Assembly: GCA_015179025.1 (NCBI GenBank)
Contig: WHUX01000006.1
Span: 62,001 to 126,000, forward strand
Source: Terfezia claveryi
Lineage: Eukaryota; Ascomycota; Pezizomycetes; Pezizales; Pezizaceae
Length of the DNA: 64,000 nucleotides
Direction of reading: 5' to 3'
Shown here: positions 4,573-57,111 of the stretch, one piece after another
How the letters are laid out: each line of letters begins with the position of its first letter
How positions within the stretch are numbered: position 1 is the stretch's first letter
Made by a program: the position numbers and the translations under genes
The notes under the pieces: model-generated
Told to the model about the DNA's origin: nothing
The model's database searches: none
Seen by the model: the letters and a program-made list of their open reading frames with translations, nothing else

Positions 4573-4598
4573 ATATATTCTTAGTCTGATATATTCTT
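4573..4598. repeat. Micro-insertion A: AGTCTG between 10-bp direct repeats
   Basis: ATATATTCTT at 4573-4582 and again at 4589-4598, separated only by AGTCTG (4583-4588). The six bases match the terminal bases of the TAGTCT family found elsewhere in the window. It looks like a target-site duplication left around a nearly complete excision. Confidence 0.65.
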
Positions 4599-4609
4599 TG
4601 ATCGAGACT

Positions 4610-4642
4610 ATGATATTCTAGTCTGGTTGGCACATGATATTC
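4610..4642. repeat. Micro-insertion B: 15 bp between 9-bp direct repeats
   Basis: ATGATATTC at 4610-4618 and 4634-4642 brackets TAGTCTGGTTGGCAC (4619-4633). The insert is the first 15 bases of the family consensus shared with 15331, 17527 and 50532. Confidence 0.8.
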
Positions 4643-4673
4643 AGTCTCGATCAGACCCTCGCAGTGATATTCA
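4635..4673. repeat. Micro-insertion C: 21 bp between 9-bp direct repeats, sharing a repeat with B
   Basis: TGATATTCA at 4635-4643 and 4665-4673 brackets 4644-4664. The insert plus the preceding A reads AGTCTC..ATCAGACCCTCG.AG, which matches the reverse complement of the insert at 7029-7053. The left repeat is also the right repeat of insertion B, so the two events are adjacent or nested. Confidence 0.75.
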
Positions 4674-5189
4674 CGAACATATAGCCATTATAATAGCGTG
4701 CGAGTCCCGGTATATACTTCTGACTGATACTGAGAATTCCTCACCTCCGCATCCGCTGGCCTTTATCAGGGTCTTTAGGTACTCAGGCACAATTTCTCGA
4801 ACTCAAGAACTGGTACCAAACTTACAGGCACCAAACGAATTTCGAGCCAGTCCGGAAATGGCTCTACCTGATTGACTAATTCTAATTCTACACTGAATGC
4901 ACCGCTTCTATACGGAAAGCATATATCTCTCCAAGTGAAACATGATCAACTGGGTACTGTATCACCCCTCGATAAGTGCAAGTGAATACAAATTACTAAC
5001 TGTCTTTTAAACAGGGTTGCTTCTCGAGATGTTTTGAGTCATCACGTGGCTCAAAACCAGTCGGGACCAGGCTGCGTCTCAGAATTCGGACAGAAACGGG
5101 CACGAGACTATAGAAACTTTCATACAGCGCCGAATCTATATTGGGAGTGTAGGGTTCATCAGCAGAAAAGAATCTGGCGTCAGGACGCG

Positions 5190-5263
5190 GCCATACCTTA
5201 GTCTCATGCCAAGACCCGGCCCTACTCCGAGCGTCGGGTCTTGGCATGAGACTAGCCATACGT
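5190..5263. mobile_element. 56-bp terminal-inverted-repeat element with 9-bp target duplication
   Basis: Element 5199-5254. Left arm 5199-5218 (TAGTCTCATGCCAAGACCCG) and right arm 5235-5254 are perfect 20-bp inverted repeats around a 16-nt centre. Flanks are GCCATACCT (5190-5198) and GCCATACGT (5255-5263), a 9-bp duplication with one mismatch. The ends TAGTCT...AGACTA and the 9-bp duplication fit a Mutator-like MITE (established feature of that superfamily: 8-11-bp duplications). It is far too short to encode a transposase. Confidence 0.8.
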
Positions 5264-5276
5264 CAGGAGCGTCAGG

Positions 5277-5343
5277 GACCCTGCAGGTACGTCAAAGTGC
5301 ATCCTGAATCCTGACCCTGTAGGTGTGTCAGGGTGTGTCCTGA
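5277..5343. repeat. Diverged 31-bp tandem pair
   Basis: Units 5277-5307 and 5313-5343 both read GACCCTG.AGGT..GTCA..GTG..TCCTGA. 24 of 31 positions agree, and all seven differences are transitions. Confidence 0.6.
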
Positions 5344-5488
5344 GCATGTCGCTGTCTCCGCTGCTTCAGCAAAACCAGTCTACATTTCGATGTCGCAAGC
5401 AAAACAGCCTGGATATTCCCATCCAATTGAGCTTCCAAATGACTCTAGCATTATCTGCTCACGAAAGCATGAATATCAGGCCTGCATA

Positions 5489-5907
5489 GAGGCCGCGAAA
5501 GCATGGAAATAACCAATCTATTGAGGCGGCGAGAGCATGGAAATCACCAATCTATTGAGGCGGCGAAAGCATGGAAATCACCAATATATAGAGGCGGCAA
5601 AAGCATGGAAATCACCAATATATGGAGGCGGCGAAAGCATGGAAATCACCAACATATAGAGGCGGCAAAAGCATGGAAATCACCAACATATAGAGGCGGC
5701 AAAAGCATGGAAATCACCAATATATGGAGGCGGCGAAAGCATGGAAATCACCAATATATGGAGGCAGCGAAAGCATGGAAATCACCAATATCTAGAGGCG
5801 GCGAAAGCATGGAAATCACCAATATATAGAGGCAGCGAAAGCATGGAAATCACAATATATAGAGGCGGCGAAAGCATGGAAATCACCAATATATGGAGGC
5901 AGTATGC
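5489..5907. repeat. 34-bp minisatellite, about 12 copies
   Basis: Unit GAGGCGGCGAAAGCATGG followed by AAATCACCAATATAT. The ATGG core recurs at 5503, 5537, 5571, 5605, 5639, 5673, 5707, 5741, 5775, 5809, 5843 and 5876. The period is 34 bp except for one 33-bp unit that lost a C. Copies differ at a few positions (GGCGGCG, GGCAGCG, GGCGGCA; CTATTG, ATATAG, ATATGG). Because 34 is not a multiple of 3, the open frames across it cycle through all phases and are not taken as a gene. Confidence 0.92.
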
Positions 5908-6118
5908 AGGGGATGCGTTATAACTTTCCCCCAGGCACTGTAACAATGACATGTGAAGTGTAATATAACTGGGGCACAGATGTGATGGAGTAACAGAATT
6001 GATTATCTAATGCCGTACCGTTTTAAGCACCTTTTGTAATACAAACCAACAAACACCTTAATCTACCATTGAAAAACCAGCAAGCACCCTCCCTAAGCCA
6101 TCTATAGACCAACAGAAC

Positions 6119-6801
6119 CTACTTTTTTGGATCGATCTTATGGGCGACAACGGCTGGCCCAGAAACAGGTTGAGGCATTGCATCCGCCAGCTTTTTGTTG
6201 AAAATGTTGTGCTCATCGAGATAAGTTTTCACGAGAAACACCATAACCTAATGGATATCAGCATTGAAATAACTGGTAGTTCACGAGTAATATATTATAC
6301 ATACCAGCGACGCCCCTCCAAGTAGGATACGGACTTGCCAAACAAGTGGCTTTATATCAGCTTTAAGCTCCCCGTAGTTCTTTTCCATGCGCGTTTCCAT
6401 TCTCCCAAATCCTGCTTCCATCCTCGTAGCAAGTTCTCCAAAACTTTTGTTGACATCGCCTTTGAAATCTCCCAAGTCCTACCATCGTTAGTCAAGCTTC
6501 ATCTACTATTGAATATGATACATGCCTTCGTCAAGCCAGCGACACGGTCATCCAGCTTATCGACATAATCCCACTATCCGACCGTTAGTTGAGCCAGTAA
6601 CCCATTACATGTAGAGTGACTTACCATACGATCGTAGTTATTCGGAGCCCACTTTTGTCTGGCTTCTTCCTCTTGCTTCCCCCCTGGTATGAATAAGCCC
6701 TCTTCATTTTCCGACCCGCTGATAAATCCCCTAAACTGAATACGTCGTGGAATACGGTGTATAGCCAGGCGGACCGCCGGTTGTCTAAACAGAGGAAGCA
6801 T
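6119..6801 (-). CDS. Small coiled-coil protein with one membrane segment, probably mitochondrial
   Basis: Four exons on the minus strand: 6801-6625, 6573-6526, 6478-6305, 6247-6119, giving 175 aa. The first 25 residues are basic and lack acidic residues (LFRQPAVRLAIHRIPRRIQF), like a mitochondrial presequence. The middle (about 60-115) is a charged heptad-like region with MDYVDKLDDRVAGL-type and GELATRMEAGFGRMETRM repeats, predicted coiled coil. Residues about 120-142 (VRILLGGASLVMVFLVKTYL) form a single membrane helix. The first two introns meet family-style branch sites (CTAAC); intron 2 (6479-6525) uses a GC donor (AAG|GCATGT). The start is the first Met of the exon that reads into the presequence. 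The exact family was not recognised. Confidence 0.75.
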
Positions 6802-8003
6802 GTTGATTCGGGTAGAAAAAAAGGAACTAGGTGGAGGTCCTTGCAGTAGCGTCCCTTGGCGGTATGGGCGTTCTAATTTTAGCGACAGACCTGTAAGCGC
6901 TATGTAAGCTCTTGGCACGAAGGAAGTTGTATAGGTAGTTGCACAAAGGTGGGGATGTGCCACCCGCGATGTCAATATTGGTCATAGAAATTGCCATGTG
7001 CTGAAGTTAACCACTGTCGCAAATGATCCTCTACGAGGGTCTGATTGAGACTAGCAAATGATCATCTTGCCATTGTTCTTAATTCCAGAGGCAGCCCACT
7101 ATCCAACACACAACAATTTCGTGCGGCTGAGGCCAGAGATGGAGTTGAAATTTCCCCTCAACCTGAACAGGGAATATTAATCTAGGTGGAATTCGCAGGT
7201 TTAACCAGGGATGTACTCCGTAGTGGAACTGAGATATCGAAACTCAGCCAGCCCTAGCTGCTGTCATCTCTTCTATAACATCTTTTGATGCATAGCATTG
7301 TTTGATTCTGACCTATCGGCACTGATGCTGGACAGGTACAAACAGCCAGCTTCAACCGGTTTGCTTTACATCTGTCTTTTCCCCTACCGAGCCCCCTCCT
7401 TCTTCGACTTCGCCTAAAATTACAGTGATCTTGATCTACGACCTGGAAAGTCCATGGTGGTGACGTTCCAGATCTCTTTGGAAACATTTCAATTACCATT
7501 TCTGGGGCGATTCAAATATACCTTCCGGCTACAAGCGTTCCGTGTCAGCTGCTTGCGTTTACTGAACCCTCCAACTGTCGTACAAAACTCAAGCTTTCCG
7601 AGGAGCACCTGGTTTTTTATACCTTTTTGCGCATCGGTATTTGGGAATTGGGCCCCACTACAAGCCAGACTACCCCACTACCATCTTCTATTTTGATACC
7701 GTATCTCTCACATTTGCTGCCCGGGCTTCTTCTGTTTACATTTAGCCAGCGAAGCAAAACCAATCGTTGATTCTTTCGCGGCAACGTACAGCTTTGCTAG
7801 TTGTCTCGTACACCTGTGGACATCTAAAAAAGTACGAGAATACGTTACCAAGAACTCAAAGGTTGAGGGCACTCGAAGGAGAAAAGTGATTACCTTCGGT
7901 GCCTTTTTTTTTTGGATTCTCCACTGTGGGGAGTTCAAGGCACTGGTAAGGCTTTCCTCTAAGGTACGGCAATCGTGGATTTGTTCTTCCTCAATTCACC
8001 ACA
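6802..8003. other. Intergenic between divergent genes
   Basis: It separates the divergent starts at 6801 (-) and 8004 (+), so promoters of both should lie here. It contains micro-insertion E (7019-7063). A pyrimidine run (TTTTTTTTTT, about 7906) lies about 95 bp upstream of the 8004 start. No supported gene. Confidence 0.6.
7019..7063. repeat. Micro-insertion E: 25 bp between perfect 10-bp direct repeats
   Basis: GCAAATGATC at 7019-7028 and 7054-7063 brackets 7029-7053, which begins CTCTACGAGGGTCTG and ends GAGACTA. Its reverse complement starts TAGTCTC and matches insertion C at 4643-4664, so the two belong to one subfamily in opposite orientation. Confidence 0.8.
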
Positions 8004-11000
8004 ATGGGCTCGCAACATCCCTATGACTCTTATGGTCCTACTCGTGGAGAGTCAACTACGTCGTCAAGATATACGTCAGCGAGGACGGCTTCGGCTTCAT
8101 CAACCCAACCTCTTGTAGCACAGACGCAATACTCACAATATGATTACCCCGAGGAACCCGCACCAGCAACCCAAAACTCCGCTACCTTCTACCCATCGAC
8201 GCAAGATGACTACTTCGCTTCTTATGGGGGTAATTGGGGTACGGGGGACCTTGTCTCTACTCCACCGCCCATGTCACCGCAGGAGCAACAGCCCTCGTAT
8301 ACGCAGCCAAGGGGGTTGTACGGTGACAATTCACCGTATTTATCAGGCGCTACCAATCCGCCTAATGCAACCTCAAGCCCATATTTAGAAACTGGTGGGG
8401 TTGGAAGAAGTCCTAGCTCTGGCGGGAATTCCTCACCCTCTGAAAGCCCTGCGATCTATACTCCAAGCATTGGCTCTAGCCCTTTGGCATCATCTCCACC
8501 GAATAGCAACCCAATTGCGCCTCCAACTTCGGCTTCGGCACCAGGATACAGCGTAGATACGTCCTATTTAGGTGCGGGCCAAATAACCTCTGCTGGTAGT
8601 ATACATGAGAGGAAACCATCAGAATTATCAAGGCCTACTGGACGTACTAGCACCATATCAAAGTCAAGAACTCCTAGGTTCCAGAAAGGGAACATGTTGC
8701 CTTTGCATGAGGATGAAGTTTTGGAGACGAAAGAAATACAGAGCCAGCAGCAGCTAGACCCTATGGAATATAACGAGGAGACTGGAGGATGGGTACGGAG
8801 AGCTAGGTCATCAGTTCAAAATAGGAGTGGAAGTATCATGAGGAGTCTCACACGGAAACTTACGACCTACAGGCCAGTAAGTGGGGAAGATCGTGATGCC
8901 AAACGTGCCCGTGCCCTCAAAAAGGATGAGGACGATGCATGGCGCGAGGGCTATGGTAACTAAATCCCTTTGAAGAAATTTGACCTTTGCTAACTATCAT
9001 GATCAGATGGTGTTGATTTCGGTGTGTTTGGCGGCTTTGATTCGGAGATCCCGGAACAGACGGCGGACGCAATGAGGCAACAACATGGAAATACAGATTT
9101 CGCATATACGGCCACAGGAGAGGTGGTGGATCTTTCTTCTCTCCAGGGACTTTACGCAGATGAGGATGAAGTGGATGACGACGGAAAGAGTAGGCGGAGT
9201 ATGTCTAACACATTTTAAGTCAGAGGAAAGGAAATCGTGCTGATATCGATGCAATACAGGTTCCTTTTCCCTCACACGGGCTACCACCGGCTTGAATCCT
9301 AATGAAAAATCTTATTATTTCCCAGAAGGTACTTTTCCACAATGGTTGAAATCTATGGTGACAGGGAGCTGATTTTGTAGATCCTGATACGCCAAACTGG
9401 AAACCAGTGACAATGCGACCTCTCTACTTAACCATACTTCAATTCCTCTCCCTTGCCATCATTGGGTTCTGTGAATTTCTTTACCAATACTCGGTGCACA
9501 GGGGCAAGGTGACTGGATTTGAGCCACATCTCACAAAATTCAAGGACCTGGGGGGGATGCGTCTTATAGACTTTGCTTTATGGAAGTACCTTCCAACCGT
9601 TATCGCTGTCGTTTTTGGTGTGCTGGTCCAGCTCACCGATGCTGAAGTTAAGCGCGTCGAGCCCTACTTTCAACTCGCTCGGAAGCCAAAGGGAGCACTG
9701 GCTGGAGACTCTCTGAATATTGAATATTCGACCTTTTGGGCAGTGCTTTGTCCTTTGAAGGCCATGCGACACAAGCATTGGGCCGTCATGCTTTCATCAA
9801 TTAGTGCTATTCTTGCGTTTGCCGCTGTTCCACCTCTTCAGTCGGTGTTCTTGAATCTGGACATGGGCAAGGCCGGAAAGAGGCCGAACCATGACGAGTG
9901 GAAATTCCTTGTTGTTGATAAGATCTGGACGAGACTTCTTGAAGCAGTGATGCTTATCATTTTGGTTCTCATCGGCGCACTTCAGTGGGTTTTTCTGCGC
10001 CGAAAGACTGGATTGGTGGGAGACCCAAGTGGAATTGCTGGTGTGGCTTCCATGGCAAATAAGGCGCACATTCTGATGGACTTCAGGGGCTTAGACCTGG
10101 CTGGTACGAAAAAGATTCATAAGCAGCTCAGCAAGAGAACATACATCTTACACAAATCTTGCCTTTGGCAAGCGGAGTTTTTGAAGGAGCACGAACGGCC
10201 TACTGAAACAGTCAGAGATCAGAACGCACACCCAGTACTCCTGCGCTTCGAGGGAGGTCTACCATTGATAGGATACCTAGTGTTGGTCATGATTATGCTA
10301 CCGCTCCTAATGGAGAAAGCAGGCTTTCAAAAAATATTATCTAAGTCTAGCTGGTTTCTAACTGTGCTGTCCATCTCTATTAAGATGTTCTGGGAGATTA
10401 TCGACCGGGACCTCCGGATGTTGCAGCCATTCTACCTTTTGTATAGACGACATGCGCACTCTGATGTCCTCACTATGGATTATACGGCGACCATTCCCGG
10501 CTGGATCATTGTGAAAGCACTACAGAATAAGCATTACCTTCTCAGCTACATAGCTACCATAACCCTTCTTAACGAAGTCCTTACTGTTTGTATGGGCTCC
10601 CTTGATCCCGTATCCGGCGACGAGACCCCCCGCTCCCAGAAAATTTCATTGGCTCTTGCAGAAGCCATCATGTTTGGGCAGGTAATCGGAGTTGCTACCG
10701 TACTATACTTTCGACGACATCCATTCCTTCCCCGACAGCCCGGAACTATCTCGAGTGTGTTGGCGTATATTTATGCGAGCCACATGCTGCCGGACTTTGA
10801 TAACATGGAAACCAAATCTACGAACGAAAGACGAAAAATACTCGCCGCAAAGAACAAGACCTATGGATTTGGCTGGTTTAAGGGATTGGTGGATGGCAAA
10901 TGGCATGTGGGTATTGACCAAGAGGAGCTATTGAGATCGTATAAGCACGGAGAGAGATTTCTGGATAGTGTCGTACAGGGCGTCCCTTCTGGATTAGACC

Positions 11001-11008
11001 AGTGGTAG
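8004..11008 (+). CDS. DUF3433-type integral membrane protein
   Basis: Three exons: 8004-8955, 9007-9198, 9381-11008, total 923 aa. Intron 1 (51 nt) has a perfect TGCTAAC branch site. Intron 2 (182 nt; GTATGT...TTGTAG) restores frame but is long, so a missed microexon is possible. The N-terminal third is Ser/Pro/Tyr-rich and disordered. The C-terminal two thirds carries several hydrophobic helices (LYLTILQFLSLAIIGFCEFL; YLPTVIAVVFGVLVQL; WAVMLSSISAILAFAAVPPL; GYLVLVMIMLPLL; AMFGQVIGVATVLYF-like) with the linker IWTRLLEAVMLIILVLIGAL. This layout matches fungal DUF3433 proteins, which are multi-pass membrane proteins of unknown biochemical role. The start is the ATG after CACCACA. Confidence 0.82.
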
Positions 11009-12415
11009 AGGACTCCTTTGGGGAATTTACCGGAATGACCGAAGATGAAAATTCTGGGAGTTTAGTTAGAGCGTTAGAGCTCAAGCTGTTTATTATACCC
11101 TTATTCTACTTTCTTCAAGCGTTGATCAAGTAGAGGTTATTTGAATTTCAGGTCAGGTGCACTAGTCTTGGCTGATTCAGTCTCGCAATATTGGATATAT
11201 GAACCGCTTGAGACGACATAAATCACTGTATATTATGTATTATCGCTTTTATGTACTATGGCTTTTTATAAATTATATTTTCTATTTTGTCTCGCACCAT
11301 AATTGCATATTGGAACATATGATATATGAACCGCTTGGGACCCCAGAAATCACTATATACTCTGTATTATGGCTTTTCTATGTTTCGTTTTCTATTTTAT
11401 TTTCTGCATCACTGCCACAAGAGGCATACTTGTAAGCTTGTTATTTGATATAGATCTCGGAGATGACCGCACGAGAACAGACACGGCCAATATGTGATGT
11501 GGTCCAATCGCAAGTACACCTTGGAGCTTACCTTACATTTGTTGTTCGGTATAGGACGAAAGAAACCACTCCCAATATGGGTATGATTAAGACTAATATA
11601 TGTAGATATCTTGCACTGCAAAAGGCATAGGCAATTTAGAGAAAACTATCATCCTCCGTCTGGTACTAGAAGACAGCAGCCAAAACTTCCGCTACACTAG
11701 GTGTAGGTACAAGTTATATACCACCGGTAAATCCCTCGGTGTGCGCCGCAGTACCAAGACATGGAGTGGAGTCTAGGCCAAAGAATGGGTGGCGAAAACT
11801 GGCGATCCGATGGTGATGCGTACTGAAAGCCCCTTATGAGCTAAACCCTACCAAAAAATTACCTTGTTTTAATTGTTTTAAGTAACGACTGTTCGGGTAA
11901 TCGTTGCTGAGCTTAGTCTCGCCCAATCCTTAGTGGGGCAATTGGCAGTTAAGGTGAGGGGGCGTCGTGCGTATTATACAGACTATGATATTGTTCACTT
12001 GGAGAGCTGGTTCACATATTCCCATAGCTTGTGCCAAATTATGACAGGCTCACTCCCTTGCCTTAATTGCTGGTGTGCGCTGCTGTCTGTGGATTCACGT
12101 CTCACAGGTATGGATATCGACTCGGAGGTGCCTGGTGATACTCGGTTACTAGTGATTTTAGATGCGTAGCAGAATCAGGATAGCAGGCGCTCTTGCCGTG
12201 TTCAAGTCATGGTCTAGCTTTTAAGCCATGGTCCTTCCCTCTGGTTGGTTATATCTCTTGTTAACCGTTCATCACGGTGCTGCCCTCTTCGAATTCATAC
12301 TCAACTCTCTCACTTATCGGATAGCCCCGAGAGAGTACAGAGGTACCCCTCATTCGGTACACAAAACCTAGAAACAGAAATATCAGAGGTCTCCTCTTTC
12401 GCCTATTTACCTAAA
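11009..12415. other. Intergenic between tandem genes
   Basis: It contains an imperfect tandem duplication (11181-11402). No coding region is supported between it and the HET-C start. A CT-rich stretch (about 12389-12414) lies just upstream of the HET-C ATG. Confidence 0.6.
11181..11402. repeat. Imperfect tandem duplication of about 110 bp
   Basis: Copy 1 is 11181-11289 and copy 2 is 11290-11402. Both begin TCTCGCA and share ATATATGAACCGCTTG, AATCACT.TAT and TATGGCTTTT, and end TTTTCTATTTT. Small indels separate the copies, so the duplication is not recent. Confidence 0.75.
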
Positions 12416-15162: not shown

Positions 15163-15215
15163 ACCGGAAGTTGCTCTACGAGCGGCTTGTGCCAACTAGA
15201 CTACCGGAAGTTGCT
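15163..15215. repeat. Micro-insertion F: 27 bp between perfect 13-bp direct repeats
   Basis: ACCGGAAGTTGCT at 15163-15175 and 15203-15215 brackets 15176-15202, which starts CTACGAG and ends TGTGCCAACTAGACT. It is the reverse-complement orientation of copies G, H and M. It has the longest flanking duplication seen (the final A of AGACTA is shared with it). Confidence 0.85.
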
Positions 15216-15321: not shown

Positions 15322-15366
15322 CGGAAAATATAGTCTGGTTGGCACAACACCCTCGTACGGAAAATA
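15322..15366. repeat. Micro-insertion G: 27 bp between perfect 9-bp direct repeats
   Basis: CGGAAAATA at 15322-15330 and 15358-15366 brackets 15331-15357, which begins TAGTCTGGTTGGCACAACAC and ends CCTCGTA. It is one of the longest near-consensus copies. Confidence 0.88.
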
Positions 15367-17516: not shown

Positions 17517-17565
17517 GATCATCCAATAGTCTTGTTGGCACAACACCCTCCATAGGATCATCCAA
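17517..17565. repeat. Micro-insertion H: 29 bp between perfect 10-bp direct repeats
   Basis: GATCATCCAA at 17517-17526 and 17556-17565 brackets 17527-17555, which begins TAGTCTTGTTGGCACAACAC and ends CTCCATAG. Confidence 0.88.
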
Positions 17566-32511: not shown

Positions 32512-32540
32512 AGTTTCACCTAACCAGACTAAGTTTCACC
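32512..32540. repeat. Micro-insertion J: 11 bp between perfect 9-bp direct repeats
   Basis: AGTTTCACC at 32512-32520 and 32532-32540 brackets TAACCAGACTA (32521-32531), the terminal end of the family in reverse orientation. Confidence 0.8.
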
Positions 32541-32905: not shown

Positions 32906-33145
32906 CGTAAGGATTATGAGATCTTAGGATATATGAACGTAGATATTGGGGATTGATCTGTAAGAGAGATGTATTGCTTGCTTGATCTATATCTCTGCCT
33001 TAAGGGGTTCTAGCAGTCTATATATACATATCTCCTCCGTATTCACACATGCTTGTCATATGTCTTCTTATCCACATGCCTCTATGTCCACATGTTGTTG
33101 ACGTACTCACATGTTTGCACATGCATTGGAAGAGTATTTCCTACA
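32906..33145 (-). repeat. 3' LTR of the copia element
   Basis: 240 bp, identical to 37430-37669 except for two positions (second base G/A; TTAGGATAT vs TTAGAATAT near 32928). The inner end reads ...TTTCCTACA on the plus strand, i.e. TGTAGGAAA in element orientation. Confidence 0.93.
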
Positions 33146-33160
33146 CCCTCCTCTACTCTG
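33146..33160 (-). other. Polypurine tract
   Basis: In element orientation the bases next to the 3' LTR read AGAGTAGAGGAGGG, a purine-rich plus-strand primer site directly abutting TGTAGG. Confidence 0.75.
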
Positions 33161-36100
33161 CCAATCTCATCCACCGGTCTTGCCATTTTTTAATGGAAAC
33201 CATGAGTGTAATCTTGGTAAGAATATCCGCTGGATTTTCCTTGCCTGGGATAGTTGTTATGGCTAATTTTTCTGCTTGTACTTGTTGGCGTAGATAGTGG
33301 TATCGATGTTCAATATGCCTAGTTCGTCTTAAACAGCGAGAGGTATGAGCTAGGTTGAAGGTTCCTTCACTATCTGTTTTTACCGTGGGTTTTAGTGATA
33401 ATCCAAGTTCATCTAGGAGTTGTTGTGCCCAAGCTGCATCTTTGGCTCCTTCACATGCAGCAATATATTCTGCTTCGGTGATTGACAAGGATACAGTATC
33501 CTGACGGCGACTGTACCATCCTACTGGTTGATCACCGAGAGTCATGAGTACTCCTGTTTGGGATCTTGCTTGTTCACCACCGTAGGATGTATCTGCATAT
33601 ATGATGAGGTGTAAATCCATAGGTTTGCATAGAATTAGTCCTAAATGCTTGGTGTTTCTTGAGATATTGCAGAATAGTTAAGGCAGCTCTATAATTTGTT
33701 GTGGAAGGTTTAGATGCTCGCCGTCCTAGAAAGTTGACATGGATAGATATCTCAGGTCTTGTCATTCTGGCAATATAAAGTAGACCTCCTGTAAGTGCTT
33801 GATATTTCTTAGCATCTTCGAAATGGTCATTAGAGTCGCGGTCATTAGAGTCACCGTATACTTCTGGATTAATGGGTAAGGAATTCTTATGTTGCGGTTC
33901 GCCTTGGAGGAGGTATTTTGAGGCCATTGTCTCTATAAGCGCTTTTTGGGTCATTACGACTTCCGTACTTGTGTTGTTCCACTTAAGCTCAATTCCTAGG
34001 AGTTTCTCTGGGTTCCCACGTTTTTCAAGCTCAATTTTTTCCTCGATTTTCTCTTCGAATTCTTTGAGTATTGTCTCGTTAGGTGCAATTCCTATAAGAT
34101 CATCGACATGAGTTCCCAGAATGAAGGAATTATCATGGTTTGTGTAAGTTCCTTCATCTCCAATGCATTGATGGAGTCCTGCAAGGGCTAGGATCTTCTC
34201 TAATGTCTTAAACCACTCATACCCTGCTTGTTTTAGCCCATATAGAGCTTTGTTAAGCTTCCAGTATTCGGTCTCTCCATTTTCATTTATATCCGAAATA
34301 TAGACATCGTGATGTAAAAGAGCCTGCAAGTAGGCGGCTACCACGTCCCACTGCCGAATTCTCCATTTTTTTGTACATGGCCAGTATAAGCAGGATTTTC
34401 AATGTTTCGGATCTTATCATTTGTGCGTAGGTTTTATCGGAATCATAGTTGATCCCGTCCTCCTGAGTAAATCCTCTCCCTACTTTTCTGGCTTTGTATT
34501 TCTCAATACTTCCGTCCAATTTTCGCTTTATTGTATAGACCCATTTGGTGTCTACAATCTTGGTCCCTTCTGGGATATCCTCTTTGGCGATTTTTGTGAA
34601 TACGCCATATTTCTGCAATTGCTCTCTTTCTTTAGTTCGTGCTTTTGCCCATTCATGTGCTTGTGCAGAGGACCTGGTTTGCGCATCTGTAGGATGGTCA
34701 GAGTCTTCAATGACAGCTTTAATCATAGCTTTTTCTGTAATTTTTCGTTGTCTCTTGGACCTTCGTTCTCCAAGTTCTTCTATCCATTCTGCAGCACTCT
34801 TTCGGTGCCTCCCTTGCTGCGGGGTGGAATCTTGAGCATTTTCAAGCTCGCTTTCTTGACTTTCTTGAGCTTTGTCGAGCTCGCTTTTTTGAGCTTTTTC
34901 GAGCTCGCTTTCTTGAGCTTTTTCGAGCTCGCTTTCTTGAGCTTTTTCGAGCTCGCTTTCTTGAGCTTTTTCGAGCTCGTTTTTTTGAGCTTTTTCGAGC
35001 TCGCTTTCTTGAGCTTTTTCGAGTTCGCTTTCTTGAGCTATTATAGGGTTTTTAGCTAATGTATATTTCCCTTTTTCATCAATCGTGATATAGGTGCCGA
35101 ATGTGGTTGTATATCCAGCAATTCGAGCAGTATACCCTCGTGGGGCTAATTTGTCTGAAGCCTTATTTTCGTAGTTGAAGCAAATAACTTTTTGGCCGAA
35201 TGGCCTCAGGTTGCTTCGCTCTTGTAGAGCGTTTTTCTTAAAGAGTACTTCAATTGGTATTCCTCCATTCAGAGCTTTGTGGGGAACTCTGTTTTTTGTG
35301 TACACTGCCCATTGTGCAGCTTTGTCCCAGAGGTTTTTTGGCATTTTTGCTGCTAGCAGAGCCGTTCTACTCATGGTCATGATGGTCCTATTTGTGCGTT
35401 CTGCAACAGCATTTGTCTCGCTGTGTCTTGGTACTGTCTCTTTAAGAGTAATTCCTCTCTGTTGTAGTTCAGTGTTGAGCTTGAGGGTATGGAACTCGCC
35501 CCCCCAGTCTGCTTGTATTTGGACGACTTTATGTTGGTGGCCAGCTTTGTTTTCCAGGGCATTGATAATTCCGATAAGTGCTCCTGCTGCATCGCTTTTT
35601 TGCTTTAGAGATCTAGCTACTATATATCTACTGTAATCATCAGTTACTAGTAGGAGATATCTATATTGGCTGGAAAGGGTTATTGGGTCTATAGGCCCAA
35701 TTAAGTCTGCATGTAATCGTTCCAGTGGTTTGGATGTCCTTATTCCTTGTTCCTTTTTAGCTGCTGGTTTTGTTGCTTTGCTGAGTTGGCATGCGTCGCA
35801 GGCAATTGCTGGTTGGATCATTTTTCCTAGTAGCTGATATTCCGGGAGGGTTTTTAGTGTATTGAAGGAAATATGCCCATATCGCTCATGTAGTGCCATT
35901 AATTTGTTGTAAGCAGCTAATGGTTGTTGGATAGTTGGAGTCATAACCGGCATTTGCTGTTCAGCCGATGTTTGCTGGGCAGCCGGTGTCTGCTGGGTCG
36001 GTGTCTGCTGGGCAGCCGATGTCTGCTGGGCGGCCGGTGTCTATTGGGTGGGCTGAGCGGCCGGTATTTGCTGGGCAATTGATATATGGAATCGGGTCTG

Positions 36101-37387
36101 GTCGGGTATTATCCAGAGTGCACCTTTATTGTCTCTTTCCATATTGTAGAGGATTTTTCCTCCCTTCTTTAGCTTGGCTACTTTACCATGTACTTGTAGG
36201 ATATGTTTATCTGGCATCCTTTCTCCACTGATGATATTGCTGTATGTTGGATCATATAGGCATTCTTTGTAGTATATCGTTCTTCCATTACATTGAAGGG
36301 TCAGTGTACCCATAGTGGTACAGATGGATTCTGATCCATTATGTCCTTTTACCACTAGGTTGAGATTGTCCTGTATTTCCGATAGCCTTCCAAGTTCATT
36401 CGTTGTGTGATGGGATGCAGCCGTATCGTATTGGTATGCTCCTGTTGGCCCACCATCTGTTTTCCCTATTGTTATCTGTACAATAATGGCTTCTTCATCC
36501 TTCTTTCGTTTCTGGCGTTTGGCAGCATTCCCTTGTTCCCTTTTCTTAGTATAACATTCGTTCTCATTGTGATTGAGACCTTGCCATCCCTTACCTATGC
36601 AATAGCTGCAACGTTTATCGTTCAAGGCTATTCTTTGAACCAATGGATTGCTGTTGTTTTCTTTATGTTGGTTTTGGCCTTTTTGCCTAACGGTAATGTA
36701 TTCGTTTATTTTCCGTGCAGTATCGTCGTAGGTTTGTTCTTTTGACCTGACATTTTCTACAGTACTTGCGTAGAATGTAGGTAGTGACATGAGTAGAAAT
36801 TCGGTTTTAACCTGCTCACATCTAGAGAAGGCCAGTAATCCTTTACCAAATCCAGTATCCTTGGTAAGGTCTGCTCGAGCGATAATGCCTGAGAAGGTAT
36901 TCCAGAGTTTTTCGTATGCTGTGATGTGCTCTGAGATCGAGTGTTTTCTATCGTCATAGTGGAGATATACCAAGCTTCTTAATAAAGAATGGAATTCAGT
37001 TGCTGTTCTTCCTTCATAGGCTTGTTTGAGGGTATTCTAGGCGTCTTTGGCTTTTTCCACTGTCGCAATTCGACTACGGACTTGGGGTTCGCTATTTTTT
37101 AGGATGGTAAGAAGAATGTAGTGATTCCCATCCAGCCATTCTTGTGGCTTATCTGGAGGTTTTCGGTATGTTCCTTCGATAATATCCTATGCTCGATGGT
37201 CTCCTAGTTGGATCATTTGGAAATAGAGTTTCATAGTTGTGACCCATTCAGGGTAATTGTCTGATCCATTTAGTTTGGTCGTGAGTGTGGTTATTTTTCG
37301 ATCGGGTGTTGTGTTCGTGCTTTTGGGGGCTTCTGGAGGCCTCATTGAGTCGTTGCCCGACCCTGAGGCTTCTGCAAAGCTTGACAT
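33153..37387 (-). pseudogene. Copia gag-pol polyprotein, disrupted
   Basis: Reads right to left from a likely start at 37387. Gag carries a zinc knuckle (CSYC...HNENEC); protease has the DTAAS active-site motif. Integrase has the HHCC finger (HERYGH...CDAC) and catalytic residues in HADLIG, QADWGGEF and AERTNRT. RT has the DD pair in THVDDL; RNase H has YADTSYGG and TEAEYIAA; the end reads GKENPADILTK. Breaks: TAG at 37187-37189, 37037-37039 and 36041-36043 (all in the gag/protease frame), a one-base shift in a T7 run at 34366-34372 just before the RT DVVAAYLQ block, and a second one-base shift near 33650-33658 before RNase H. Integrase and RT are separated by about eight ESELEKAQ-like repeats. 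Confidence 0.9.
34835..35040 (-). repeat. 24-bp tandem repeat inside the integrase-RT linker
   Basis: About eight copies of a unit encoding ESELEKAQ (plus strand TTCTTGAGCTTTTTCGAGC). In frame (24 bp = 8 codons), so it expands the protein rather than disrupting it. Confidence 0.85.
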
Positions 37388-37417
37388 TGTATGTTGAAGT
37401 AGCGCTTTTGAAGCTCC

Positions 37418-37432
37418 GGGCTCATAACCCAT
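37418..37432 (-). other. Primer-binding site of half-tRNA type (initiator tRNA-Met anticodon arm)
   Basis: Plus strand GGGCTCATAACCC (37418-37430) abuts the 5' LTR. This is the sequence of the initiator tRNA-Met anticodon stem-loop, so the element RNA is complementary to an internal tRNA segment rather than to its CCA end. Priming by a cleaved initiator tRNA is established for Drosophila copia and yeast Ty5. Confidence 0.75.
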
Positions 37433-37669
37433 AAGGATTATGAGATCTTAGAATATATGAACGTAGATATTGGGGATTGATCTGTAAGAGAGATGTATTG
37501 CTTGCTTGATCTATATCTCTGCCTTAAGGGGTTCTAGCAGTCTATATATACATATCTCCTCCGTATTCACACATGCTTGTCATATGTCTTCTTATCCACA
37601 TGCCTCTATGTCCACATGTTGTTGACGTACTCACATGTTTGCACATGCATTGGAAGAGTATTTCCTACA
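37430..37669 (-). repeat. 5' LTR of the copia element
   Basis: 240-bp partner of 32906-33145. The outer end ...TTTCCTACA is followed by the AAGTG duplication. Confidence 0.93.
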
Positions 37670-47763: not shown

Positions 47764-47818
47764 TATCGGGAATCTAGTCTGGTGCACTACCCCTCGAAGA
47801 GAGCAGACTATCGGGAAT
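47764..47818. repeat. Micro-insertion K: 35 bp with both family ends and 10-bp direct repeats
   Basis: TATCGGGAAT at 47764-47773 and 47809-47818. The insert carries TAGTCTG at its left and CAGACTA at its right (the last two bases shared with the duplication), so both terminal heptamers are retained. Confidence 0.85.
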
Positions 47819-47842
47819 TATCAAGCCAGACTAGGGAATTAT
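47813..47842. repeat. Micro-insertion L: 12 bp between perfect 9-bp direct repeats, inside the right flank of K
   Basis: GGGAATTAT at 47813-47821 and 47834-47842 brackets CAAGCCAGACTA (47822-47833). Its left duplication overlaps the right duplication of K, so two independent events hit the same few bases. Confidence 0.85.
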
Positions 47843-48120: not shown

Positions 48121-48139
48121 CCCTGACCAGCGTACCCAA

Positions 48140-49907: not shown

Positions 49908-51213
49908 TTGAGGCAACAATGTGACTGAGATTATTTGACGAATTTTAGACTAGCATCCACACCTTGTACTCTATATATGCACATATCAAAGAGCGCTGCT
50001 TCCCGACTAACGTCACCACATGGCGTTCCCTGTACCTGAAACTATTTAGAACAAATCCGGTAAGTTTGGGTTTGAACGGGTGCTAAGCTTTCTAAACACG
50101 CCCATTGGAATTGGCCCCTGCAGCTGCAAGATGCCTGCAGTGTTCACGTCATACATGAACGCGTCGACTCCCACTGCGATGGAAGACCCGGGCTGTTGAT
50201 GCCGAAACTCGAGAAACACAATGATACCCTCAAAAACAATCCTCTGTTGCTGAAGAGGCATTTTGAATTTTTGTAGCTCTGGAGTTGAGCTTTATTTGTC
50301 TAGAGGATCAAGGCATCTGAGGTGAGGCTTTTGTTTAGTCCAGAGACTTTGAGGCGTCAAGCTCTTACAGATACCACTCCCTTTTGCAACTTTGGTGAGG
50401 AGGAAATGTTTGACTATTCGTACTAGCATTGATGCCCGTCAGATATTTGTTGGTTCTCCTCGGACCAACCAGCCAAGCCACAGTTTACTCGGGCCTCTTT
50501 CCAATGGGATATATAGTGACACTTATTCAATTAGTCTGGTTGGCACAGCACCCTCGGTAGAGGGAGGATATTCAATCTATCGAGTCAATATATGGCCTAA
50601 CCGCCCCGACATTTGTACGATTGTCAGCCCTATGAGTATCGTCACTTCACGGAAATGCTCGTCCTGAGACTGGATCGTACCTATATTGTACGCTGCGCCG
50701 AAAGAAGCGAGGGTTTGAATTTCTGTTGTTGATATCAATCACACTCTAGCTGTGCTTGGGTCTAAACATGGCGACTGTGAGTTGCAAGTCTAGAGAATGG
50801 AAGATGCCTGGGAGATATTCTGAAGATAGACTGAGGCCAAGCCCGACAGACTGTATCGTTATCTAGTCACCATCATAACAGCACCCGGATAATCCTTCAA
50901 TGGCTTGGGCTTCCTTGGGGTGCTTGGGCTTCCTTGGGGTGCTCTCTCCCTTATCTCTCCTGCTTCGCCCACCGTCACACTCTTAGGGCACGAGATTAAC
51001 CCTCTTATAGCTCCCACCTCCCACTTCTTCTCTCTTTCTCTTTTCTCACGCACCGATACACATCCCACTGAAGGATTCTTTACCGACCACCATCAAACCT
51101 CCATTTATTGTACTCTTACTCTACTCTTACTCTCATTCTATATATAGTTTAGTTGGTTTTGCAATCTTATCTTCATTCATTTGGATTGATTCTCACGAGT
51201 CTCGGCCTTCATC
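49908..51213. other. Intergenic between SHMT and the CCCH gene
   Basis: It contains micro-insertion M (50524-50576), a short direct repeat GCTTGGGCTTCCTTGGGGT (about 50905-50945) and a pyrimidine-rich stretch at 51014-51050 (CTCCCACCTCCCACTTC), a likely promoter element of the downstream gene. No gene supported. Confidence 0.55.
50524..50576. repeat. Micro-insertion M: 37 bp between perfect 8-bp direct repeats
   Basis: TATTCAAT at 50524-50531 and 50569-50576 brackets 50532-50568, which begins TAGTCTGGTTGGCACAGCAC. Its right half folds as a small hairpin, CCCTC GGTA GAGGG. It is the longest copy of this subfamily. Confidence 0.88.
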
Positions 51214-53466: not shown

Positions 53467-55393
53467 GGATAACAATTTGCCGTCGGCTGTTGTCGTTCCT
53501 TTTGGGAAATTATCCTCGGATCTTATTCGTTTGGGATTGTATCGAGTTGTAATCGGTATAGTAGGGGGAGCACCTTATTATTCTACCTTTCCTTTTTCCG
53601 ATTTCCTATTTGGTTTCCCCTCTCTTTCGTTTAAGGATGGTATCTCCTCCACTGGCCAACGGCGTTTCTTATTACGTCGTTTTTCTTTTGGTTGGTTGAT
53701 TTGGGTCGATGAAACTTATCTCTTTTTGTTTACGTTCTGGGCATTGGATGGATTTCATGCAGGGTCCTTCCAACTTTCCCTGTCGACACTGACCATTCCT
53801 TACATGTTATTCATGGGCACATTTGTTTCATCCATTTTCTTTTATACGGAGGCTTGTTTAGTGTTTCCTGGGCTATTTTCTACCTGGTTCATAAGAACTT
53901 CTTTCTAGGTAAATGCCCCGAATATTGGCCAGAAAAGACGGCGGAGGTGATCTATCACATTCGACAAACGCCGCAAAATATTTGGGCGAAAGCATGGGCA
54001 CTATTTGTATGTTGGGCATAAGGTAGCTGATATCTGGCAGACTCAATTTCATGATAATTATGAGAAATAACGATTGGGTTTAACCTTTGACTCTAGTCTG
54101 CCATACCGGGAAAACTGGCCTTGTCTGTCTCTTTGCTCTTTCCTTTTTGTGGTAGGAGCGTTACTAGTTGTGGGCGGATTAGCGTCCTTGACTCGAATTT
54201 TGACTTGAGTTATGATTCAGATACAGACAAGGAGTCTTATTCACCAGTTTTCCCGGGTACTCACAGTGATCGTGGGTTCCTGGGGTACCACGTCGTTGAC
54301 GTATTTGTGCATGCTCAGGGTTGCGGCGCCTCTAGACCTGCTTGCGCGATATGTAAGTGTGGCTCGTCGAGCCGCGGCAGGAGTGAAACGGAGACGTGAG
54401 ATAAAGCAAAGCGAGATTGCCTCACTGTAGTCTGGCCTCATTGTGCATGTGGAAGAGCGCCGGCCATCCCAACTCCCATCATCCCCGGTATTTTTTATGC
54501 AGCCAGACGAGGTGTTCTCGTCATCCCCAGCAAAGGGAGACGATAAATGCAAACTATACGGTAGGCCATGTCCTTCTAGCTCAACTACTTTGCTTGCTTT
54601 CTTATGCAGGGATTCCATCTGTCAACTTGGGAACTTTCCATTGGGCAGAACCGAGTTTCATTACGCCCGGGCAAGGGATATCATTTCTCCGGCTGCCAAC
54701 CCAGATTGCCAGACTGCAGATTCTCCCCTAGCATGCCAGTGCCCTTACTATCATATCAATCAGACTATTTTCACATTGCGAGGGGCTCGCGCCAACCAGA
54801 CCACTATCTCACTGCCTGCTAGTGCCAGATCCTAGGCCTAAGTTGTAACCAGTACGGTCTACATATCCGCCTCATCCCACGCTGCGACGGCGTTGAACTA
54901 CTTAAGTACCGAAGCGCAAGTATCCCAGATCCCGAGACTATTCCAGGTCCTTGTGGAAGAGAGGTACTTGTGTGGCTACGTAACTGTATAGGGTTGCTGG
55001 CCACACGATCGAGCAGCAGCAGCGACATTAACATGGCACGTCTTAGGTAGCCAGACAGAGTAGAAGCACAGCAGCACGCCCATGGCCACGCGTTGGCACA
55101 GCTTGGGACAGGGCAGGCTGACTTCATTTCATCAAGTTGGGAAGCACTTACATACCATTCGCGCTCGGGATTTTACCCCACCTCAAGAGGTTTCGTCAAG
55201 GGCACATCCAGCAGTTCGATCTCAGTGCTCAATTCCTCGTACCCCACTATTACTACTTAGTTCTACTTAATTCTCCCCTCCCTTTGTCTTATTTCCTATC
55301 GTTTTCTCTTCCAAGTTACCCATCCCTTTAAGCAACTCGCGAAAATCGCAGCAGGCCCTACCAGTATTCTTCAATCTGTATAATCTCTGTACT
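53467..55393. other. 3' region of the CCCH gene and spacer
   Basis: The open frame continuing to 53908 is ended by the strong intron at 53395-53447 (GTATGT, TGCTAAC, GCAG) and is read as 3' UTR. Micro-insertion O lies at 54419-54443. A CT-rich leader (about 55265-55320) precedes the next gene. No other gene supported. Confidence 0.55.
54419..54443. repeat. Micro-insertion O: 7 bp between 9-bp direct repeats
   Basis: GCCTCACTG (54419-54427) and GCCTCATTG (54435-54443; one mismatch) bracket TAGTCTG, exactly the terminal heptamer of the family. Confidence 0.65.
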
Positions 55394-56506
55394 ATGTCTT
55401 ACTGCGACAGCTGCACCGACCCGTTAGTTTTCACCGCTGGAGACACTGGTATCGTGAACGGTGAGGGGTCTTCAAGAGGTGGTGTGAGGGTTGTGGATGA
55501 CATTGAGCTTATTTGCGGACATCATTTCCACTGGTAAGACTCTCAATCAATATCCTAGCTTTGGTTGAATTGTTCGTTGGAGGGTTTTCTGCGCTTCATG
55601 AATTGCGAGTGGAAAATCATAATGCGAATTATGCCTTCGCCTACAAGGAGCTGAGCTTTAGAGCATGAATAACAAAAGAACATGCAAAATCACTGAGGTC
55701 ATCATCCCGGCACATTGTGTGCAGCACTTTTTTCGTCAATCTCGACCAGTTGTGTTTTATTTTTGTACGCCTTTTCATCCGATTGGATCTTGCATCTACA
55801 TTGCATGAAGAATATTGATCTACATACTTCGCTCTTATGGATCTAGATCTATTCGTTGTTTTCTTTTTAGGACCTTTCACCTATCGAATGCCGAAGTCTT
55901 TCTCCTATTATTTCTGCACTCATTCGGGCTGTTGCATGAAGTACATACTAACATCGGCTATCCACAGGTCCTGTTTCTCCGATGCATACTCAACAGGGAG
56001 AAAAACCACCTGCCCCAAATGTGACAAAACCATAATTGACCCTTCAACAAACACACTCCTGGTAACCCTGCGAAACAACGCGCTTGGAGAACAAAATCGT
56101 TTTGATTTGGGAACAAGACTCGAAGAGGAAGAGGACAATGGCTCGAAACCAGAGTCAAGGAGAGTGCGCGATTTCTTGGAAACTTGCGCCGCTGGTAAGG
56201 CTTAACCCCCGAATGCTTCTCCCGTCTGTCTATCCGCATATCTGACCATGTATGCATCTAGGTGATGAGGCTAGCATTCTCAGTATGTTAGAGGACGATC
56301 CATCATTGCTTGCTTCTCAGGATTTCGAAACAGCACAGACATGTCTCCACTGGGCCGTACGACATGGCCGCTATGATGCAGCCATCCTCCTACTAGCAGA
56401 AGGTGCCGACCGAAATGCAATGGACAACAACGGAAAGACATTCATCGATCTCGCACGACAATTAGGGGCCCCAGAAGATATCCTATTCAAGCTGGGCAGC
56501 AGCTAA
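55394..56506 (+). CDS. RING-like zinc-binding and ankyrin-repeat protein
   Basis: Three exons: 55394-55533, 55968-56194, 56262-56506; 203 aa. The N-terminus has MSYCDSC, CGHHFHWSCF and CPKCDKTI in RING order (C-x2-C ... C-x-H-x2-H-x2-C ... C-x2-C). The CGHHFHW/SCF junction is created by splicing. The C-terminus has an ankyrin-type pair (TCLHWAVRHGRYDAAILLLAEGADRNAMDNNGKTFIDLA in segments). RING plus ankyrin suggests an E3 ubiquitin ligase or a zinc-stabilised scaffold. Intron 1 is 434 nt, far longer than the others in the window, though it ends with a clear TACTAAC branch and CCACAG acceptor. An undetected exon inside it is possible. Confidence 0.8.
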
Positions 56507-57071
56507 ACATTGATAAACGACAGTTACACCCTAAACTTACTTAAATAATAAGGTGGAGTGGGTTGCTTGTGTGGCAATGAGAGCTTTGTGTTTGACACAA
56601 CCATTTGATGAATATTTTATGATATCAAGTATGTGGATGGAGTTGATTGGCAGAGTTTGTTTGTATGGGTTCTGTATTACTATAGTTTCGGGGTTTAGAA
56701 TACCGCTTTCAGACTATCTCTTTCCCTCTATCAAGCTCAAAAGGCTCCTGCTTTTGTGAATGAGTACGTGAGCATTGGTATCGATTTCTTCCCTTGATCA
56801 TATCCGATGTATTTTTTATTATGTGGCTGCTAGATCGGTCTTGGGCAGCGCTCAGTGACATCATCAAAGTTTCATCGGGAAGTGGGGTGTTTTTTTTTTT
56901 TCCCTCTTTGGCTCATCGGCTGTTTCATTGGATTCCGGGGTATTGTACGAGACGTGGGGCTTTTTTGTAGGCTTCTGTACTGCGATTGGCCTGAGTAAGA
57001 TATTCTGGGGACGGTGGCATTGAACGACATTGCATAATATTCACGCACGCTACATATACACTTGTCATATA

Positions 57072-57111
57072 CTTGCACAGTAGTCTGGTTGACACAAAGA
57101 GGCTTGCACAA
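57072..57111. repeat. Micro-insertion N: 22 bp between 8-9-bp direct repeats
   Basis: CTTGCACAG (57072-57080) and CTTGCACAA (57103-57111) bracket TAGTCTGGTTGACACAAAGA plus GG (57081-57102). It diverges from the consensus after ACACA. Confidence 0.8.

Follow-up and report, generated by a model that had tools for sequence, protein, structure and literature searches.

How do segments of DNA as short as 7 bp, each starting with TAGTCT, come to lie between two copies of a target sequence? That question is raised by a 64,000-nucleotide stretch of the genome of the fungus Terfezia claveryi, the whole of which is here termed the window, and in which a sequence-only reading had listed 14 such sites. 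All 14 were found again on re-reading, i.e., as a short insert between direct repeats in each case. These repeats are perfect at 11 sites and carry one mismatch at three (5190, 54419, and 57072), just as had been claimed. A further in-window case (7653-7681), with a perfect 9-bp repeat, was absent from that list. Inserts are described as ‘one-ended’ or ‘two-ended’ depending on whether the TAGTCT end is found at one border or, inverted, at both (Table 1). The inserts at 4610 and 4635 have one direct repeat in common.

Table 1. TAGTCT inserts of the window, with positions counted from its first nucleotide.
Site	Insert	Strand	Form	Duplication
4573-4597	4582-4588	+	7 bp, one-ended, TAGTCTG	9 bp, ATATATTCT
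4610-4642	4619-4633	+	15 bp, one-ended	9 bp, ATGATATTC
4635-4673		+	second insert at the 4610 target, TAGTCTCGATCAGACC family, without the first T of TAGTCT	
5190-5263	5199-5254	.	56 bp, two-ended, TAGTCTCATGCC family	GCCATAC(C/G)T, 8/9 identical
7019-7063	7029-7053	-	one-ended, TAGTCTCAATCAGACC family	
7653-7681	7662-7672	-	11 bp, one-ended, TAGTCTGGCTT	GTAGTGGGG, minus strand
15163-15215	~15176-15203	-	one-ended, TAGTCTAGTTGGCACAAGCCGCTCGTAG	13-bp repeat
15322-15366	15331-15357	+	27 bp, one-ended	CGGAAAATA
17517-17565	17527-17555	+	29 bp, one-ended	GATCATCCAA
32512-32540	32521-32531	-	11 bp, one-ended, TAGTCTGGTTA	AGTTTCACC
47764-47818	47774-47808	+	one-ended, one additional base ahead of TAGTCT	
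47813-47842	47822-47833	-	12 bp, one-ended, TAGTCTGGCTTG	GGGAATTAT
50524-50576	50532-50568	+	37 bp, one-ended	8 bp, TATTCAAT
54419-54443	54428-54434	+	7 bp, one-ended, TAGTCTG	one mismatch
57072-57111	57081-57102	+	22 bp, one-ended	one mismatch

Abundance of the inserts and their insert-free sites

That repeats beside a common end exceed what chance would supply had been argued previously, and this holds upon counting. Within the window, a flanking repeat is present within 80 bp at 12 of 51 TAGTCT sites vs. 120 of 6,326 sites (1.9%) for 200 random hexamers. Among 20 further 10-kb stretches, which were picked around core matches and thus are a biased sample, the equivalent counts are 49 of 179 vs. 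290 of 19,914 (1.5%). Some random hexamers score highly, i.e., GAGCTC (12/40), ATCACC (10/56), and ATATAT (13/144) in the window along with GGAGGA (14/235) in the 20 stretches, and these I take, as a group rather than case by case, to be tandem or simple repeats. With a scan that presumes no motif, TAGTCT leads all hexamers at the left and the right edge of the inserts in the 20 stretches (8 and 20 of 174 pairs), though not in the window by itself (2 and 3 of 43 pairs). Over window and stretches together, 33 of 217 exact direct-repeat pairs possess TAGTCT no more than 3 nt from an edge. The genome-wide search for the core, TAGTCTGGTTGGCACAAC, that had been suggested returned, at up to two mismatches, 3,260 matches in the 72.6-Mb genome vs. 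a single match for the reversed control. Chance as the source of repeat-flanked TAGTCT inserts is ruled out by these core counts in combination with the random-hexamer and motif-free scans.

Mobility had been proposed as well, though only as an inference. Paralogous sites without the insert can be seen directly, aligned within this same genome, for seven inserts, the shortest of which is 10 bp and another just 12 bp, and these therefore are true insertions with target duplication. Mobility thus is supported, as judged within one genome. Aligned empty paralogues exist for the two-ended copy at locus L022. An all-against-all BLAST of the window and loci L009-L049 provided no convincing empty site among the 12 gaps listed.

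Duplication, target, and the single polar end

The earlier description of a fixed end, a variable length, and a 9-10-bp duplication is correct, with 9 bp the commonest length; the longer duplications (10, 13) I read as 9 bp plus identity of adjoining bases. Given TAGTCTGG-anchored inserts, with repeats of at least 8 bp admitted and two-ended copies counted from both sides, the duplication is 9 bp in 25 of 42, 8 bp in 2, and longer in 15. Perfect one-ended cases, with repeats of at least 9 bp admitted, have exactly 9 bp in 27 of 38. Twenty two-ended loci were examined, including two mutually duplicate pairs and with L058 repeating L021. At 11 of these the duplication is flush, perfect, and 9 bp long exactly, and at two it has a single mismatch, such copies being 25-56 bp long. 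The other seven lack a flush duplication; at three of them (L050, L051 as a duplicate of it, and L063) a copy of 9-10 bp is visible by eye a few bases away. In all, 25 of 69 strict copies are without a short duplication at up to one mismatch.

The target is dyad-symmetric about the centre of these 9 bp. At a half-width of 7, and with random positions of the same DNA as reference, this symmetry is seen over all sites (n = 66, p ~0.0007), with two-ended sites (n = 17, p = 0.025), and with one-ended sites (n = 49, p = 0.001-0.002), the last also at half-widths of 5, 9, and 12 (p = 0.009, 0.002, and 0.002). Target information content is above random at half-width 7 (p = 0.04) and not at half-widths 5, 9, and 12 (p = 0.22, 0.13, and 0.10). 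Target conservation, that is, is weak, and the symmetry of the target is as for a transposase or integrase.

Two-ended forms are scarce. Both exact 15-mer arms are present at 50 places vs. the 3,260 core matches (at up to two mismatches), and strict two-ended copies hold ~3% of ends. An extended-arm pattern has 35 matches, 30 of which represent both strands of 15 two-ended sites and five of which are others; breaks inside the second arm thus are rare. The single end is strictly polar: in the main sub-family CTCGTAG is found 247 times vs. 3 for CTCTACG, with one of those three a listed two-ended site, and a 264-kb sample displays the same direction (CTCCACAG, 7 vs. 1; CTCCTTTG, 2 vs. 0). Because two-ended copies are so few and the end so polar, most copies are unlike self-contained two-ended elements. 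A mobile sequence well below the size of any MITE, as had been suggested previously, is consequently not supported in the form proposed.

The length of one-ended inserts is limited in the DNA examined. Forty-eight of 49 are 7-37 bp long, with clusters at 10-15 and at 24-37, and the 49th (46 bp) is a misclassified two-ended copy. With the search extended to 120 bp, three longer matches (94, 104, and 110 bp) came with repeats of just 7-8 bp, and I take these to be chance. The inner break lies at 22-27 bp in five inserts of the TAGTCTCGATC family, at 26-36 bp in 17 of 23 inserts of the TAGTCTGGTTGG family, and at 35-37 bp in three inserts of the TAGTCTCATGCC family; it tracks a CTC(GTAG) motif more than distance. 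One insert has its first letters doubled (TAGTCTAGTCTGG, at 7852 of L024, minus strand), and a 3-nt TAG insert is found in three of eight repeat pairs with a gap of 3. By eye, both arms of many two-ended copies share sub-family letters while some copies mix sub-families. An identical 40-bp two-ended sequence occurs at two unrelated loci, L056 and L057, with different duplications, and hence this two-ended sequence could have moved as a unit. As a side observation, two papers contain the string TAGTCTGGTTGG, one dealing with zebrafish endothelium and the other with intestinal Hunk/Mak-v.

Proposed excision tags and competing explanations

The sequence-only reading had left a choice between a mobile sequence and excision remnants. 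The latter is preferred here, with a cut geometry added and with about an even chance of being correct: the inserts may be ‘excision tags’ of one or more TAGTCT-ended DNA transposons with P-element-like geometry. Such a transposon, or several related ones, would insert so as to generate a 9-bp target duplication. At excision its transposase would cut the 3'-ending strand right at the border of the element and the 5'-ending strand ~22-37 nt inside of the element, beside a CCTC(GTAG)-type motif, leaving each donor flank with a 3' single-stranded tail that starts with TAGTCT. As these two tails would have the same sequence, they would not be complementary. Repair would then trim one tail to the recessed 5' end, i.e., to the exact duplication border, with the other tail, whole or shortened, ligated to that recessed end. 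The product would be duplication, TAGTCT... (~7-37 bp), and duplication again. Were both tails instead retained and annealed via self-complementary stretches, then a short palindromic two-ended scar would result, as may account for the rare palindromes. What the sequences themselves show is a polar constant end, a duplication of mostly 9 bp, a symmetric target preference, a length limit in the DNA examined, few two-ended forms, and sites lacking the insert; the motif-linked inner break and the sub-family letters shared by both arms of many two-ended copies also favour the model. Which enzyme acts, where it cuts, and in what sequence the steps follow I infer; the terminal repeat of an intact element is predicted to be TAGTCTGGTTGGCACAANNCNCTCGTAG. 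For an intact long element, an exact 9-bp repeat was sought up to 6 kb onward of the 25 strict copies lacking a short duplication (264 kb), and found for none. Bare 9-bp duplications are to be expected with excision tags, as both tails should sometimes be lost, and such tandem duplications are in no clear excess (9, vs. 14 for a unit of 8 and 2 for a unit of 10). Also weighing against the model are the 8-bp duplication of P elements, the two-ended loci and strict copies that lack a duplication, the 40-bp sequence common to L056 and L057, those two-ended copies with mixed sub-families, and the weakness of the target preference, and from the 20 MULE loci no transposase could be linked to the TAGTCT ends.

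An alternative that is tentative, yet to be taken seriously, is that a eukaryotic enzyme system directly writes one-ended polar tags into 9-bp staggered breaks at symmetric targets, with no larger element involved; the tags then would be of 3 to ~37 nt, starting with TAG and mostly with TAGTCT. The main rival, though unlikely, is the target-primed copying of a short RNA. Here, where a target is broken with a 9-nt stagger, its 3' end would prime reverse transcription of an RNA ending AGACUA-3'. Either a short RNA or an early halt of the enzyme would keep the copy short, and two-ended forms would stem from priming at both target ends. The constant end, variable opposite end, duplication, and strict polarity all fit this, as do the doubled first letters of the L024 insert and possibly the 3-nt TAG inserts. 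Against it are the symmetric target, a duplication centred on 9 bp where those of retroposons are mostly variable in length, the limit of ~37 bp to one-ended inserts in the sample, and the absence of an A-rich tail. Nor does RNA-sense folding of nine family units surpass that of mononucleotide shuffles (z from -1.53 to +0.97), and within the window Rfam provides no match at gathering scores, hence no known RNA family there. One-ended transposition is known for some bacterial Tn3-type transposons, its signature being just such a constant end, variable end, and duplication. An equivalent here, with only the TAGTCT end joined to a 9-bp staggered target and end joining sealing the inner end, would suit the insert-free sites of 10- and 12-bp inserts. 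By itself it nonetheless leaves the ~37-bp limit and the motif-linked break unexplained, and I consider it doubtful.

Less probable again is that a palindromic micro-MITE of ~50 bp inserts as a complete unit, with random loss of one arm afterwards. Two-ended copies that have a 9-bp duplication do occur, the copy at L022 has its empty paralogues, and the 40-bp sequence is present at two loci with differing duplications. Random arm loss nevertheless predicts equal loop orientations, and what was counted is 247 vs. 3, such that random palindrome halves are disfavoured by the strict polarity of the single end. Few breaks lie within the second arm, moreover, and the 50 strict two-ended places stand against 3,260 core matches. 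A perfect 51-bp palindrome, tried as a master sequence, has a single match, which carries three mismatches. Abortive gap repair, established for some transposons, would start from a precise excision, after which each flank copies a short part of the element off a sister template before the ends are joined. The duplication would thereby be retained and partial element ends left behind. The longer remnants that it predicts were not found, i.e., one-ended inserts of more than ~37 bp in the sample, its two-sided remnants make up only ~3% of ends, and the many bare duplications to be expected are in no clear excess; it is highly improbable.

Relation to known elements and meaning

P elements duplicate 8 bp of target, whereas the duplication here is mostly 9 bp, with a mode of 9 in one- and two-ended copies alike. 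P-element breaks possess 3' tails of 17 nt that are not complementary to each other and on which classical end joining acts poorly, and the microhomologies used in repair often sit within those tails (PMC2895639). The likeness of the excision tags proposed here to Drosophila P-element footprints would consist of long 3' terminal-repeat donor tails and microhomology repair (PMC2895639). The tail proposed here would be longer, ~22-37 nt vs. 17 nt, and there are thousands of tags in one genome. Maize Mu has a 9-bp target duplication (PMC2774946), and the duplications of the inserts agree with those of MULEs generally, i.e., 8-11 bp and mostly 9 bp. The MULE Muta1 differs from the inserts in that, given a duplication of 8 or 9 bp, its excision is reported to be mostly precise (PMC5225508). 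MULE genes exist in this genome, as 21 PF10551 matches at 20 loci. TAGTCT-terminal repeats were not seen at those loci in flanks of ~1.5 kb, which are short, and their long inverted repeats start otherwise. At L035 and L046, TAGTCTGGTTGGAGAG is present inside of the long inverted repeats, facing outward.

As with MITEs, inverted ends and a duplication are found in the rare two-ended copies, yet these are very short (25-56 bp among those whose 9-bp duplication is flush or carries one mismatch). Two terminal inverted repeats within a duplication characterize a minority of the inserts and not the bulk (50 vs. 3,260). With 5'-truncated SINE and LINE insertions the inserts share one constant end, a variable opposite end, and a duplication. 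They differ in their symmetric target, 9-bp-centred duplication, ~37-bp limit, and lack of a tail: in place of an asymmetric nick site with duplications of variable length there is a weakly dyad-symmetric target and a mode of 9. Aspergillus fumigatus SINEs, for example, have duplications of 4-14 bp (PMC5063351). Viral contigs gave no exact 24-mer match, and no description of such inserts was found among titles and abstract openings of the open-access literature.

This genome thus holds thousands of scraps with a common start, many of ~7-37 letters, each with a copy of a 9-letter target on either side, and inserts this small would easily be mistaken for ordinary small indels. The tiny one-sided inserts look like the marks of a mobile element whose cut falls unusually deep within its own end. 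If instead they are direct insertions, then there is a new route by which chromosomes acquire tiny sequences. If they are excision tags, then the genome is a readable record of thousands of former transposon residence sites, with the tags revealing both the position of the cut inside the terminal repeat and the outcome of repair, something which normally would require biochemistry.

Abundance of TAGTCT-ended inserts

The window, which lies within contig C556 of a 72.6 Mb, 794-contig assembly, was studied together with twenty 10-kb stretches (264 kb in total), plus 3-kb search-match loci and small stretches. Those twenty stretches were picked around core matches and thus are a biased sample. 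Among named organisms, the two best relatives of the window's SET-domain protein come from Kalaharituber pfeilii, at 60% identity, and Peziza echinospora, at 55%; environmental sequences reach 98%. The genome is that of a fungus and, judged from this one protein, probably of a member of the Pezizales near the Pezizaceae. A Copia-like retrotransposon, named by eye from open frames, lies at window 32908-37669 (minus strand), with a 24-bp tandem array within an open frame; its two 238-bp direct repeats are identical, and it is therefore perhaps recent.

The sequence-only reading had described fourteen short window inserts as bracketed by direct repeats, and these are present at all fourteen; 11 of the repeat pairs are perfect, and a single mismatch occurs in each of the other 3. 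That such repeats exceed chance also holds: 12 of 51 TAGTCT sites in the window and 49 of 179 in the biased stretches have them, as against 1.9% and 1.5%, respectively, of the sites of 200 random hexamers. A few random hexamers score high as well, e.g., GAGCTC (12/40), and are taken to be tandem or simple repeats. The core said to be shared by most of the inserts, TAGTCTGGTTGGCACAAC, has genome-wide, at up to 2 mismatches, 1,624 plus 1,636 matches, versus 1 for the reversed control. In a motif-free scan for inserts between exact 9-14-bp direct repeats, TAGTCT was the top hexamer at both edges across 20 stretches, was not so in the window alone, and lay within 3 nt of an edge in 33 of 217 repeat pairs. 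Several families share TAGTCT and then diverge, i.e., TAGTCTGGTTGGCACAA, TAGTCTCGATCAGACC, TAGTCTCATGCCAAGACC, TAGTCTCGTGCCCAGACC, TAGTCTGGTTGCACTACC, and TAGTCTGGCTTGCAC.

Target duplications and insert-free paralogues

Among TAGTCTGG-anchored inserts the duplication is 9 bp in 25 of 42 and 8 bp in 2 (at least 8 bp admitted), and in perfect one-ended cases, i.e., with TAGTCT at one side only, it is exactly 9 bp in 27 of 38 (at least 9 bp admitted). At 20 two-ended loci, duplicates included, where TAGTCT ends are found inverted at both sides, 11 duplications are perfect, flush, and exactly 9 bp, 2 have one mismatch, and 7 loci lack a flush duplication, with a copy sitting a few bases away in three of those. 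Target letters are weakly conserved. The target profile is mirror-symmetric about the 9-bp centre, with correlations, as judged against random positions in the same DNA, of 0.58 for one-ended (n=49, p 0.001), 0.43 for two-ended (n=17, p 0.025), and 0.69 for all sites (n=66, p 0.0007). A profile of this kind marks a transposase or integrase complex that is itself symmetric; seen in both classes, it suggests a single enzyme behind them.

For 47 of the 48 sites, the two flanks were joined and used as a genome query for insert-free sites. For seven inserts, paralogous sites could be aligned, each with at least one relative without the insert; TAGTCT segments are, that is, insertions. Of the mobility previously inferred, it is thus insertion that stands, at those seven, with all comparisons paralogous and none allelic.

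Inserts with aligned insert-free paralogues (L, loci outside the window in the same genome)
Position	Insert	Length (bp)	Insert-free relatives	Remarks
L022 4519	two-ended copy	54	L078, L079	single target copy; 52 match rows at site
L025 3675	insert	31	L080, L081	target one G shorter; 8 match rows
L025 156	insert of another family	35	L082	also L083, with two altered target letters; 5 match rows
L010 5869	insert	34	stretch near L010 5344; L075	
L011 7123	insert	12	L077	
L016 4762	TAGTCTGGTT	10	L076	
L028 832	insert	17	L084	79% alike, target altered

Five further copies aligned to L010 5869 (L070-L074) have partial duplications or different tiny inserts. In copies of a single host repeat (L073, L074, and L010 5869), different inserts lie at a shared 9-bp target, no more than 1 bp apart (AACAAGACTA, AATGAGACTA, and, on the opposite strand, the 34-bp TAGTCTGG insert), which is a hotspot or one site used repeatedly. 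By their length, search matches would be compatible with empty sites for a further two of the two-ended copies (L054, L064).

Polarity and length

Strict two-ended copies number 50 genome-wide, a few being adjacent separate inserts, versus 3,260 core matches; this is about 3% of ends, approximately so since the strict and core patterns are not equally long and tolerate different numbers of mismatches. Were one-ended copies random halves of palindromes, both loop orientations would be expected, yet exact copies genome-wide are 247 for ...CTCGTAG versus 3 for ...CTCTACG, one of the latter a listed two-ended site, which disfavours that possibility. Other loop types agree in polarity (7 to 1 and 2 to 0 in the 264 kb). 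Partial second arms are rare, with 30 of 35 extended-pattern matches being both strands of 15 known two-ended sites. Arms of two-ended copies, by eye, have matching sub-family letters in many cases and mixed sub-families in some.

One-ended inserts are 7-37 bp long in 48 of 49 cases in a scan reaching about 60 bp, the 46-bp exception being a misclassed two-ended copy; a scan to 120 bp added three longer matches only, with 7-8-bp repeats. Most lengths fall into two groups, 10-15 and 24-37 bp. Where the inner break lies tracks the CTC(GTAG) motif more than distance, as seen with few inserts per family. As TAG is present in 3 of 8 direct-repeat pairs with a 3-nt gap, the series may reach down to 3 nt.

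Three loci are of separate note. An insert at L024 7852 (minus strand) repeats its initial letters (TAGTCTAGTCTGGTTGG), a pattern consistent with slippage at the constant end. L019 7289-7356 is a 34-bp tandem duplication containing TAGTCTGGTTGAACCTCTCA plus its 14-bp flank. At L020 3173-3330, TAGCCTCGTA ends border a two-ended stretch of 158 bp, which has a 9-bp duplication (ACCATACAC) and two TAGTCTGG inserts inside and is possibly a longer relative.

Possible origins: excision or RNA copying

The inserts may be scars left upon excision by a long staggered cut, a reading for and against which we would place about equal weight. It is favoured because it accounts for an exact TAGTCT border, an exact duplication border, and an inner end that is variable and bounded. 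Such a cut would leave donor flanks with 3' tails of terminal-repeat sequence; one tail, trimmed or untrimmed, would then be ligated to the opposite flank's recessed 5' end, i.e., the exact duplication border, giving a one-ended scar, and two tails annealing together would give palindromic scars. The element, its enzyme, and the former presence of a full element at every site are assumed. P-element breaks have a like geometry: their 3' tails are 17 nt long and non-complementary, classical end joining handles them poorly, and repair often uses microhomologies within the tails (excerpt of PMC2895639). The inserts differ from P elements by their mostly 9-bp duplication. That duplication should not by itself be taken as the sign of a Mutator-like element (MULE), since excision of the MULE Muta1 is mostly precise given 8- or 9-bp duplications (excerpt of PMC5225508).

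Counting against excision is an identical 40-bp two-ended sequence that is found at two loci, unrelated to each other, where the flanking duplications differ. No intact long element was found: of the 25 strict copies that lack a short repeat, none has an exact 9-bp repeat as far as 6 kb on, within the DNA covered. Bare 9-bp duplications show no clear excess. Repetitive subterminal arrays occur at several of the inspected MULE loci (L030-L049), and in-frame stops at several; these loci tie no transposase to TAGTCT ends, and two (L035, L046) have TAGTCTGGTTGGAGAG within long inverted repeats, at both ends, pointing outward. The main rival, in which target ends prime the copying of a short RNA, explains polarity and one-endedness equally well. 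Target symmetry, the 9-bp duplication mode, the length limit, the lack of significant folding, and the absence of an Rfam match within the window all weaken it, and we consider it improbable.

Excision scars as such are a known kind. Among the titles and abstract openings listed by searches of open-access text, no description was found of a genome with thousands of long, single, polar, P-like scars with a 9-bp duplication. Contigs C424, C615, and C408 (15-25 kb) have insert and near flanks in common with C434, C773, and C3, respectively, a pattern expected of haplotypes that were retained or of recent duplications, and these pairs (L050/L051, L054/L055, L021/L058) could yield allelic presence/absence data.
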